DNA of 57,771 bases, taken from Prevotella sp. (lineage in GTDB: Bacteria; Bacteroidota; Bacteroidia; Bacteroidales; Bacteroidaceae). The stretch spans positions 1-57,771 of the forward strand of contig JAFVGN010000023.1 in assembly GCA_017474925.1 (NCBI GenBank), given 5' to 3'. Within the stretch, counting starts at the first letter, position 1, and each line of letters opens with the position of its first letter. This document shows positions 19,490 to 51,407 of the stretch, piece by piece. The position numbers and the translations under genes are program-made. The notes under the pieces are model-generated. The model worked only from the letters and a program-made list of their open reading frames with translations, did no database searches and was not told the DNA's origin.

Positions 19490-19527
19490 AAAAGAGCGCC
19501 AGGTCGTCAATGACTTGGCGCTCTTTC
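19490..19527 (+). terminator. Terminator of the transglycosylase gene
   Basis: AAAGAGCGCCA pairs with TGGCGCTCTTT (11 bp) and leads into a T-rich stretch. Confidence 0.8.
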
Positions 19528-19689
19528 TATTTAACGGAAAAAAAAGCTCAAATAAATTTGGCTTTTCGCTCATTTTTTCGTAACTTTTGCTCTGCAGAAG
19601 TTCTTTGACCTAAAGGTACAAAGTGTTGCACAAATCCTCCGTCTCGAAAAAAAAGAAACGAGTTTCTTTGTTTTGTGCTCGACTTTTCG

Positions 19690-19697
19690 TAACTTTG
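19690..19697 (+). promoter_or_regulatory. GH3 gene promoter (-7 box)
   Basis: TAACTTTG 32 bp before the ATG. A similar but looser TTCGTAACTTTTGC occurs near 19578, so the gene may have tandem promoters. Confidence 0.55.
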
Positions 19698-49011: not shown

Positions 49012-49476
49012 ATGAAACAAATAGAAGTTGTAGCAGCGATAATTCGCAAAGGAGATAAGATCTTCGCCACGCAGCGAGGATATGGCGAGTGGAAGGCTGC
49101 GGATAAGCGAGGGCAGAGCGATGCTTGCATCAGTTATGCCGAGCGAGAGCAGGCTCGTCTGGAAGGCAAAGCTGGGTGGGAATTTCCTGGCGGAAAGATG
49201 GAGGCTGGGGAAACACCGAAGGAGGCGCTCGTGAGGGAGATTCGCGAAGAACTGTCTGCGGAGATTAGCGTAGAGGAGTTTCTGTGTACGGTGGAGCATG
49301 ATTATCCAGCCTTTCATCTCACGATGCATTGCTATCTGTGTTCACTAATGACAGAGGCGCTGCATCTGAATGAGCACGAAGCTGCGAAGTGGCTGGGCAA
49401 GGATGAGCTGAATAGCGTGAAGTGGCTGCCTGCGGATGAGAAAGTAGTGGAAACGTTATTACTTTACCATGGATAA
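49012..49476 (+). CDS. Nudix hydrolase (MutT-like) with in-frame repeat insertion
   Basis: The 154-residue protein has a Nudix box GGKMEAGETPKEALVREIREEL. The N-terminus (MKQIEVVAAIIRKGDKIFAT) and end fit 8-oxo-dGTP diphosphatases of about 130 residues. Between RGYGEW and GWEFPGGK, where MutT proteins have a short turn, lie about 25 extra residues (28-52, containing EREQARLE) encoded by the 73-bp repeat. The 3' end overlaps vsr by 8 bp. Confidence 0.88.
   Translation: MKQIEVVAAIIRKGDKIFATQRGYGEWKAADKRGQSDACISYAEREQARLEGKAGWEFPGGKMEAGETPKEALVREIREELSAEISVEEFLCTVEHDYPAFHLTMHCYLCSLMTEALHLNEHEAAKWLGKDELNSVKWLPADEKVVETLLLYHG
49095..49167 (+). repeat. 73-bp interspersed repeat, copy 1 (inside the Nudix gene)
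   Basis: Aligns without gaps to the reverse complement of 50597-50669, 57 of 73 positions identical when counted by eye. The best conserved part is CCGAGCG(A/T)GAGCAGGCTCG. In this orientation it encodes AADKRGQSDACISYAEREQA and RLE. Confidence 0.8.
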
Positions 49477-50026
49477 ACTCTCAGCACAACAGCGACACGC
49501 CAATATGGCAGCAATTCGGTCGAAAGACACGAAGCCTGAGATGATTGTGCGTCGCGGGTTGTGGAAGAGAGGCTTCCGTTATAGGCTGAACCATAAGCGA
49601 TTACCTGGGCATCCGGACCTGGTGCTAAGGAAATACAGGACATGCATCTTTGTGAATGGGTGTTTCTGGCATGGACACGGGGTGACGATGTCACCAGTTG
49701 ATAGTTTAGAGTTGAAAGTTGAGAGTTCTTTGTGCTGTAAGATTCCGAAGACGAACAGGGAGTTCTGGGTGGCGAAAATTCGCAGGAACAAGGAACGGGA
49801 TAAGGAGGAACAGCGGAAGTTGGCGGAGATGGGTTGGCATTGCATCACAGTTTGGGAGTGCGAGCTGAAGCCTTCGAAGCGTGAAGAGACGCTGGACTCG
49901 ATTGCATTCACCTTGAACCATATATGGTTGCAGGATCATGGGGCCAAGACAGTTCCATATCAGAAAGTGGAAGAGGAAAATGAGAATTACCTAAAAGCTG
50001 CGGAGGAAGAAGTAAGCGAGGACTGA
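49469..50026 (+). CDS. vsr: Vsr very-short-patch-repair endonuclease with insertion
   Basis: The 185-residue protein nicks DNA at T:G mismatches. MAAIRSKDTKPEMIVRRGLW, catalytic D50 in LPGHPDLVL, and H68 in FVNGCFWHGH are present. Between HGH and IPKTNREFW, residues 71-90 are extra compared with Vsr proteins, where HGH and PKT are only about ten residues apart. They come from GTTGAAAGTTGAGAG-like repeat DNA. No cytosine methyltransferase gene is nearby, so it may be orphan. Overlaps the Nudix gene. Confidence 0.9.
   Translation: MDKLSAQQRHANMAAIRSKDTKPEMIVRRGLWKRGFRYRLNHKRLPGHPDLVLRKYRTCIFVNGCFWHGHGVTMSPVDSLELKVESSLCCKIPKTNREFWVAKIRRNKERDKEEQRKLAEMGWHCITVWECELKPSKREETLDSIAFTLNHIWLQDHGAKTVPYQKVEEENENYLKAAEEEVSED
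49683..49735. repeat. Repeat-like insertion inside vsr
   Basis: GGTGACGATGTCACC (palindromic, about 49680-49694) is followed by AGTTTAGAGTTGAAAGTTGA-type heptad-like DNA. The reading frame is kept. Confidence 0.5.
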
Positions 50027-50095
50027 GCGATGTTAGTAGTCCATTTCACAAATTCACTTAAAACCAAGGGCAAAGGTACTCATAATTCCACGATT

Positions 50096-50145
50096 ATTTG
50101 TACCTTTGCACCAATTATTAGGATTGTTTATGAAAGATTCGATTA
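50096..50145 (+). promoter_or_regulatory. Promoter and leader of the aminotransferase gene
   Basis: TACCTTTGCA (50100-50109) is followed by ATTATTAGGATTGTTTATGA, closely similar to the leaders at 52.96 kb and 55.54 kb. A 9-codon ORF begins at the end of the motif (MKDSIKDCY). Confidence 0.5.
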
Positions 50146-50162
50146 AAGACTGTTATTGAATA

Positions 50163-51407
50163 ATGAGACCACTTTCCACACGCACGGCAGGCTTCACGGA
50201 CTCCATCATCCGGCGAATGACACGTATCAGCAACCGCTACGAGGCTATCAACCTCTCGCAGGGATTCCCCGACTTCGACCCGCCACGGGAGATTACCGAC
50301 CGTCTGGCAGAGATAGCACCACACGGCCCTCATCAGTATGCAATCACCTGGGGAGCACAGAACTTCCGCGAGGCATTGGCCAAGAAACAGAGCCGCTGGA
50401 CGGGGCTGCCGATAGATGCCAACAAGAACATCGTTGTGACGTGCGGCTCGACGGAGGCGATGATGGCGGCGATGATGACCGTTGTGAACCCAGGCGACAA
50501 GGTGGCTATCTTCTCGCCGTTCTACGAGAACTATACAGCCGACACGATTCTCACAGGGGCCGAGCCAGTATATATCCCGCTCGTACCGCCAACATTGGCT
50601 TCCAGCCGAGCCTGCTCACGCTCGGGAGACTCGAAGCAAGCTTCGGTCTCCTCTCGCTCAATCGCAGCCTTTTCGTTTGATGCCAACCTGATTGAGGATG
50701 CTTTCAGACAGGGAGCCAAGGCGCTGGTGCTGTGCAACCCGTCCAATCCCTGCGGCAAGGTGTTTACTCGCGAGGAGTTGCAGGAGATAGCCGACATCGT
50801 GATTCGATACGACGGTTATGTGATAACAGATGAAGTGTATGAGCACATCGTCTATGCCCCTCACCGGCATGTCTATATCTCCACACTGCCCGGCATGTGG
50901 GAGCGCACCATATCGTGCAGTTCGCTCTCGAAGACCTACTGTATCACGGGCTGGCGATTAGGGTATGTTATTGCCCCAGAACACATCATCGACCGCGTGA
51001 AGAAGGTGCATGATTTTCTGACCGTTGGCGCAGCGGCTCCTCTGATGGAGGCAGCCACCGTCGGACTTTGCTTCCCTGACAGCTACTACGACGAACTACA
51101 GGCACATTATACCCACATGAAGCAGCTCTTCTGCGATGGACTAAGACAGTTTGGACTGACGTTCACTGATCCGCAAGGAGCTTATTACGTGCTACTCGAT
51201 GTCTCTAAGTACGGTGTGAAGGACGACTTGCACTTCTGCGAGTGGCTGGCCGAGCATGTCGGTGTTGGAGCAGTCCCAGGCAGTTGCTTTTTCAGAGAGG
51301 ATGTGAATCACCTGATTCGCTTCCACTTCGCCAAGCGTGACGAGACACTTCTCGCTGCCCTCGATCGCCTCTCAGAAATGGAAGCAAAAGCAAAGAATTA
51401 TCGTTAA
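50163..51407 (+). CDS. PLP-dependent aminotransferase (class I/II) with in-frame repeat insertion
   Basis: The 414-residue fold-type I aminotransferase resembles methionine/kynurenine aminotransferases (YbdL type): INLSQGFPDF, HQYAITWGAQNFREAL, ITDEVYEHIVY, PLP lysine K257 in SLSKTYCITGWRLGY, and LIRFHFAK. After YIPLVPP the family continues directly with FxxD; here residues 145-169 (ASSRACSRSGDSKQASVSSR) are extra, encoded by an inverted copy of the 73-bp repeat found in the Nudix gene. Whether the enzyme tolerates it is unknown, but the frame is intact. Confidence 0.88.
   Translation: MRPLSTRTAGFTDSIIRRMTRISNRYEAINLSQGFPDFDPPREITDRLAEIAPHGPHQYAITWGAQNFREALAKKQSRWTGLPIDANKNIVVTCGSTEAMMAAMMTVVNPGDKVAIFSPFYENYTADTILTGAEPVYIPLVPPTLASSRACSRSGDSKQASVSSRSIAAFSFDANLIEDAFRQGAKALVLCNPSNPCGKVFTREELQEIADIVIRYDGYVITDEVYEHIVYAPHRHVYISTLPGMWERTISCSSLSKTYCITGWRLGYVIAPEHIIDRVKKVHDFLTVGAAAPLMEAATVGLCFPDSYYDELQAHYTHMKQLFCDGLRQFGLTFTDPQGAYYVLLDVSKYGVKDDLHFCEWLAEHVGVGAVPGSCFFREDVNHLIRFHFAKRDETLLAALDRLSEMEAKAKNYR
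50597..50669 (-). repeat. 73-bp interspersed repeat, copy 2 (inside the aminotransferase gene)
   Basis: Inverted relative to copy 1 at 49095-49167. Its minus strand would encode AAIEREETEACFESPEREQA and RLE, aligning residue by residue with copy 1, but the host gene reads the other strand. Confidence 0.8.

Follow-up and report, generated by a model that had tools for sequence, protein, structure and literature searches.

The window analysed here, the whole 57,771-nt contig JAFVGN010000023.1 of a Prevotella sp. genome (GenBank assembly GCA_017474925.1), carries two neighboring genes of unrelated conserved families, each interrupted in frame by a copy of the same short palindromic element, hereafter the mini-element. 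The parent genome (G000) is a metagenome-assembled genome (MAG) of 2.28 Mb in 66 contigs, 63.65% complete. The genes and their inserts are:

49012–49476, + strand: host gene 1, Nudix hydrolase of 154 aa (Pfam NUDIX_4 and NUDIX; orthologue alignment)
49093–49167, + strand: first element copy (75 bp net), lying in frame within the Nudix gene, with AA repeated at 49168–49169
50163–51407, + strand: host gene 2, class I/II aminotransferase of 414 aa (Pfam Aminotran_1_2; orthologues)
50597–50671, − strand: second element copy (75 bp net), lying in frame within the aminotransferase gene, which reads its opposite strand, with AA repeated at 50595–50596

The Nudix insert lies between GEW and the conserved WEFPGGK, and the aminotransferase insert at about residues 146–169. 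A sequence-only reading of this DNA had described a gapless 73-bp alignment of the two segments with 57 identities after reverse-complementing one of them, and 49095–49167 (+) against the reverse complement of 50597–50669 gives exactly 57/73 ungapped identities. When the two segments are compared by BLASTN the alignment grows to 83 columns at 78% identity (E ~7e-15, against the window), which excludes chance. The two segments are copies of one element. A covariance model (R1) scores both at 90–92 bits, although these scores are not independent, since both copies are in its training set (alignment A1, 36 copies including those of G000). The earlier unit of 73 bp, taken as 24 codons plus one base with flanks rescuing the frame, is corrected here: the net insertions are 75 bp, or 25 codons, each opening with AA and having another AA behind it, and the length alone preserves the frame.

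Comparison with insert-free orthologues, also envisaged in that reading, shows the 25 residues to be absent from orthologues at both window sites, the orthologues being shorter by exactly that number. For the Nudix gene, 29 loci (L254–L282) gave 24 aligned sequences, 23 of them usable after removal of the non-orthologous L259, and none of the 23 contains the insert found in the window. One of the Nudix orthologues (L264, from G074) carries an independent 25-residue copy of the element at a different site (IIRK / GDK). An aminotransferase search at E ≤ 1e-60 identified seven genomes of 100, that of the window included; in the other six the insert is absent from five (G090, G035, G074, G063, and G020) and present in G081. 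In G090, G035, G074, and G063 the protein match splits at the insert into query residues 1–145 (G074: 1–144) and 169/170 to 413/414 with adjacent subject coordinates, while the G020 gene lacks the insert and is otherwise rearranged too. A DNA alignment displays this gap as well, and in it the G081 gene has the same insert at the identical site, so some inserts are probably inherited; L020/L022, L224/L228, and L220/window are apparent cases of one ancestral insertion held in common. An aminotransferase paralogue on contig C18 of G000 also lacks the insert. This second gene (C18 vs C44), with about 85% DNA identity, is perhaps a paralogue or perhaps derives from a second strain in the bin.

Further copies, for which the sequence-only reading had proposed a search, are numerous in G000, in the genus, and in the family. 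BLASTN with a window copy finds eight places in G000, and R1 finds 67 at E ≤ 0.1 and 63 at E ≤ 0.01, some of which belong to its training set. Two places are duplicates across contigs C15/C34, and their removal leaves 61 copies; the background density in G000 is one per 36 kb. Across the genus, BLASTN with the consensus matches 143 of 200 genomes (about four candidates scored per genome) and R1 matches 92 of 100 (about 47 candidates scored per genome, for which reason its per-genome counts are lower bounds). A family draw yields matches in 124 of 201 genomes and 21 of 30 genera, and a phylum draw in two of 247, namely G000 and one other member of the same family; both draws were strictly filtered, and the latter is seemingly poor in this family. 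An exact 33-mer occurs in 23 named record stretches with Prevotella, Prevotellaceae, Bacteroidaceae, or Bacteroidales titles, many of them RUG, deer, goat, or sheep records. BLASTN against a plasmid collection and a phage collection gave zero matches to the mini-element, and an exact 25-mer of it is present in four stretches of IMG/VR. Sets of near-identical copies are found in G055, G037, and G063, and head-to-tail copies with a period of 75 also occur. The mini-element is a dispersed repeat of Prevotella and its family, with up to tens of copies per genome.

The unit follows the plan A-P1-GATTAAGCGAG-P2-loop-P2'-CGAGCGTGAG-P1'-(T)CG-P3, then AA. Its commonest length is 75 bp, with a range of 66–84 bp among well-resolved copies. 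P1 and P2 together fold into one long, imperfect hairpin whose internal loop, CGAG/CGAG, is conserved, and P3 is a second, small and variable hairpin. RNAalifold applied to A1 predicts 19 consensus pairs, 12 of which show two-sided changes. Pairing of P1 with P1' was assessed at fixed offsets from the conserved motifs in a set of 212 copies, comprising the 61 of G000 and 151 from other genomes of the genus (high scorers or visibly expanded sets); 154 of the 212 have both motifs, and 95 remain after removal of near-duplicates. The Watson–Crick fraction of P1 is 0.826 against a permuted maximum of 0.648, and with the commonest P1 excluded (51 copies, 33 distinct P1 sequences) it is 0.810 against 0.560. 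Outer P2 pairing is 0.951 against 0.853. Downstream of P1', a perfect P3 stem of at least 4 bp is present in 0.716 of copies and 0.038 of shuffles, with arms that vary from copy to copy; GAA is the commonest triloop, accounting for 32 of the 62 triloops closed by a 4-bp stem. Both C(GAA)G and the tandem G·A pairs of CGAG/CGAG are very stable in DNA, a lead toward a single-stranded DNA form only. RNA folding of a single copy is unremarkable (z −1.58). An Rfam search of ten loci (29,383 bases, E ≤ 1) returned two matches, none on the mini-element. Two candidate structured RNAs near uvrC, confined to Prevotella, are described in PMC8040213.

Among 185 copies with both stems placed, AA forms the start of the unit in 179 and follows it in 167. 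The unit thus lies directly 5' of an AA and is bordered by AA on both sides, apparently without a longer constant target duplication. Terminal inverted repeats are lacking, with a mean of 1.8 matching bases of ten. Full 8-nt flanking repeats occur in 8 of 147 copies (permutation maximum 3), and an eight-base target duplication as a general rule was rejected on these numbers, some of the eight perhaps being tandem copies. In the expanded genomes, identical or near-identical copies stand in arrays of 7-bp units: ATTGAAC in G055, GTGAAAA or GGTCAAT in G037, and TTCAATC in G063. A 261-base IMG/VR stretch (L341) contains the mini-element inside an array in the same pattern as G055. When the flanks are joined across the unit, a period of 6–8 is restored at 26 of 80 sites without coding flank, at 1 of 26 in-gene sites, and at 3 of 1060 positions drawn at random from the same loci, which gives independent support for a unit running from AA up to the next AA. 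Such period-7 arrays recur as hosts of the mini-element (L139–L164, in G055, G037, and G063) and could be either targets or footprints of past insertions. Some subfamilies (AAAGGTAC, AAAGTTAC) adjoin GCAAAGGTAC-like sequences, which resemble a reversed Bacteroidetes −7 promoter box.

Behavior inside genes was assessed from 180-bp flanks, scored with codon frequencies from 119 long open reading frames. By this home-made score, 92 of the 212 copies have no coding flank, 69 have one, 10 lie too close to a contig or locus end, three have coding flanks on opposite strands, and 38 have both on the same strand; the Nudix copy of the window falls in the one-sided class because its upstream coding part is just 81 bp. 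Of the 38, 31 keep the frame and are open, two keep the frame with a stop, and five are scored as shifted. Among in-gene copies whose ends are well placed, 25 of 27 have an AA-to-AA length divisible by three, vs 22 of 79 copies without coding flank (Fisher p 2e-9). When only one of any copies over 90% alike is kept, the numbers are 20 of 21 vs 20 of 44 (p 8e-5), and the corresponding values are 11 of 11 vs 17 of 34 at 85% (p 0.003) and 8 of 8 vs 12 of 26 at 80% (p 0.011). Units within genes are nearly always 75 bp, adding 25 residues, whereas lengths of copies without coding flank include 66, 73, 74, 75, 76, 77, 79, 83, and 84 bp. One frame of one strand is used by 25 of the 31 in-frame open copies (example peptide, KAAIKREQSQACLDSAERKQARTKLK), and the stop-free frames of six number 3.6 for in-gene copies, 2.4 for copies without coding flank, and 2.1 for shuffles. 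This length bias (25/27 vs 22/79) indicates that the coding-adapted look reflects survival in genes and not the element itself. Adaptation to coding sequence, as first suggested, thus applies to a subset of copies and fails as a general property, 92 of the 212 having no coding flank.

Host proteins with Pfam matches include GOGAT (two sites, with one gene holding two tandem copies), type III glutamine synthetase, Y-family polymerase, aldo-keto reductase, M28 peptidase, GH88, GH43, LysR, ThiF, AbiEii, the DEAD-box helicase DbpA, and carboxylesterase. Several of the domain matches span the insert, and two of 26 scanned proteins have no family. One in-gene copy (L025:1477–1556) appears to contain a nested second short insertion, with the frame still kept.

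Three further matches were identified in the window:

1515–1583, + strand: divergent third copy (P1 ATTATCG / CGATAAT), directly 3' of a 7-bp tandem array (1487–1514)
19618–19696, − strand: weak match, possible degenerate relic of the AAAGTTAC subfamily (R1 20.6 bits, E 0.0016)
19514–19587, − strand: weak match, possible degenerate relic of the AAAGTTAC subfamily (R1 20.0 bits, E 0.0022)

The third copy gives R1 a weak core match only (12.3 bits, E 0.35) and is 84% identical over 64 columns to a copy in the same genome at C30:34126. The Vsr endonuclease gene beside the Nudix gene (49469–50026) has an apparent extra stretch, SPVDSLELKVESSL, at about 49690–49735. Its sequence, AGTTTAGAGTTGAAAGTTGAGAGTT, is a short imperfect 7-bp-like repeat that resembles the arrays hosting the mini-element elsewhere, and is possibly an array within a gene.

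Taken together, the dispersal, the near-identical sets, the constant junctions, and the compensatory fold point to a mobile element selected for its structure and moved in trans. It is very probable that the sequence is a mobile in-frame mini-element. It is likely, with somewhat less confidence, that it is a non-autonomous element defined by structure that works like the Rickettsia palindromic elements (RPEs), and that it is mobilized in trans. Under this interpretation, near-identical copies would mark recent movement, and a trans-acting enzyme, for which an HUH/Y1-like single-strand transposase is the most plausible candidate, would use folded single strands as its substrate. A copy in a gene would survive if P3 brings its length to a multiple of three and no stop interrupts the reading frame in use. 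With its two hairpins, its short invariant junction, and no inverted repeats, the mini-element bears a likeness to single-strand transposition of the IS200/IS605 kind; a single-stranded DNA step in movement is conceivable, if slightly doubtful.

Candidate enzymes are widespread: of 100 genomes, 55 have genes resembling the repetitive extragenic palindrome (REP)-associated tyrosine transposase (RAYT) and 64 have Y1_Tnp, and copy number correlates positively with the counts of both (rho 0.37 and 0.24, respectively). Y1 proteins of ~280 aa occur in 18 of 51 element-rich genomes vs 1 of 22, a subset chosen after the list had been viewed. The RAYT-like gene of G000 is apparently split over two frames (L006:218–463 and 375–1223), and the pieces were searched separately. 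It belongs to a Prevotella protein family (L006:375–1223 and L069–L098) with frames often of 340–400 aa, in which a RAYT-like N-terminus is followed by a long C-terminal extension; genomes often have several diverged matches, and for some members the match is in two segments, as though an insert separated them. The open frames of Y1_Tnp proteins L327–L329, of about 280–300 aa, all terminate in DQRTVP, a peptide that might come from a distinct repeat running over the end of the gene.

These data bring in the closest rival, a REP-type or REPIN-type (REP doublet forming hairpin) element moved by a Prevotella RAYT. Such an origin would account for the palindromic, dispersed and in part head-to-tail copies, for the tracking of RAYT-like counts, and for a RAYT-like gene (NF047646, E 6e-7, under the curated cut-off) ~290 bp from one copy in G000 (contig C36). 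The unit is about 75 bp rather than 20–40, however, and few of 166 insertions have a REP tag close to an end (GTAG 3, CTAC 0, CGTC 3, GACG 7). Co-location is at about background: a mini-element match is found in two of 30 RAYT-like loci (110 kb), one being the G000 locus that prompted the idea and the other cut by the locus end, and in five of 20 Y1_Tnp loci (166 kb). Eight of the 51 element-rich genomes, some of them incomplete, have no hit to either transposase family. We consider this origin unlikely, and RAYT as the mobilizer was rejected since, despite the gene adjoining a copy in G000, neither set of loci is enriched. Retroposition, by which a structured RNA would be copied back by a reverse transcriptase, is similarly improbable: the compensatory changes that conserve the fold are compatible with RNA pairing, and the lack of terminal inverted repeats and insertion next to AA would fit, but no Rfam family falls on the mini-element in the search above. 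Two more rivals deny movement altogether, and both are extremely unlikely. Were the extra residues ancestral parts or functional domains lost in some relatives, the shared insert of G081 would be expected, but not one and the same DNA in intergenic positions and, in both orientations and in more than one frame, in unrelated genes, nor its absence from most orthologues examined. Misjoining of repeats into genes during metagenome assembly or binning could be suspected in a 66-contig, 63.65% complete MAG. Matches occur, however, in the near-complete G024 (one contig, 10 matches) and G010 (three contigs, 26 matches), counted at genome level with gene context aside, and in the 23 record stretches from several projects; most in-gene copies are also in frame, unlike misjoins.

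Some of these results equally weigh against our preferred interpretation of a structure-defined element mobilized in trans, namely the background-level co-location with both transposase families and the element-rich genomes that lack hits to either. Other points in the same direction are that DNA folding of the window Nudix copy is no better than that of shuffles (z 0.56), that the array control sampled random positions of the same loci and not intergenic DNA alone, that the frame classes depend on the codon score, that copies share ancestry, and that the coding share of the 212 copies is not unbiased, since selection favored high scorers and expanded sets. Orientation relative to GC skew is biased in the genus copies (102 of 147 positive) and unbiased in G000 (33 of 61), and a replication-strand bias was rejected for this inconsistency, with short flanks and gene direction as confounders. 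It is tempting to extend the interpretation to a guided, frame-tunable class of mini-elements, in which the P1' strand would select targets by pairing with AA-containing sequence. Subfamilies that differ in P1 would then insert at promoter-like sites (AAAGGTAC), at Lys-Ala codons (AAGGCTGC), or in period-7 arrays, and the variable P3 would set the length, 75 bp being gene-compatible and 77/79 not. As a whole we judge this extension quite unlikely; if true, mini-elements would be a standing supply of new protein segments in Prevotella.

Frequent in-frame selfish DNA in conserved genes is best known from Rickettsia, with rarer cases involving miniature inverted-repeat transposable elements (MITEs) or REPs elsewhere, reported in PMC10969869 and PMC3733652. 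Here the hosts are abundant bacteria of gut and rumen, the affected proteins include housekeeping enzymes, and orthologues with empty sites are at hand. This opens two questions to testing, namely whether proteins gain from such insertions or are unaffected by them, and what enzyme is responsible for moving coding palindromes. The mini-element may also account for recurrent "extra" 25-residue segments in Prevotella proteins, which can be misleading in annotation and structure work.

No paper in the open-licence PMC literature was recognized as describing the mini-element. A parent element carrying a gene as well as both ends was not encountered, no systematic search having been made. Like classical MITEs, such as that of Porphyromonas gingivalis (PMC4596501), the mini-element is short, non-autonomous, and multi-copy, and in-frame fusions derived from MITEs are reported in PMC10969869. 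Unlike MITEs, it has no terminal inverted repeats and apparently no constant target duplication past AA. The ends of IS200/IS605-type insertion sequences, as in IS608, have subterminal hairpins, no inverted repeats, and a short fixed insertion motif without longer duplication. The mini-element resembles these ends in its hairpins, its lack of inverted repeats, and its short fixed AA junction with apparently no longer duplication. With REP and REPIN sequences (PMC3733652 and PMC3116915) it shares dispersed short palindromes and clusters, and the former paper reports some intragenic REPs from a number of species as well as CGTC repeats from Bacteroidetes; it differs in being longer, nearly always without a GTAG/CGTC tag, and not co-located with RAYT or Y1 genes.

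The closest resemblance is to RPEs, which PMC10969869 describes as small palindromic repeats without a transposase gene, in frame in many unrelated genes and also intergenic, with a recurring peptide; a similar role in the protein evolution of other prokaryotes is deemed conceivable there, and RPEs are also listed in PMC2635572. This likeness in concept, suggested from the sequence alone, is borne out by the further copies, the insert-free orthologues, and the 31 of 38 copies in frame and open. Like RPEs, the mini-element is small and palindromic, has no transposase gene, encodes a recurring peptide, and lies both in frame in unrelated protein genes with varied Pfam families and between genes. 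It differs from RPEs in its length (mostly 75 bp vs about 150), its host group, its two-hairpin plan with CGAG/CGAG loop and AA junctions, and its presence in period-7 arrays and beside CAAAGGTAC-like sequences. Membership is not claimed, as the likeness is one of description and matches are confined, in the draws made, to the single family that holds Prevotella. We class the mini-element with the coding palindromes, separately from the RPEs.

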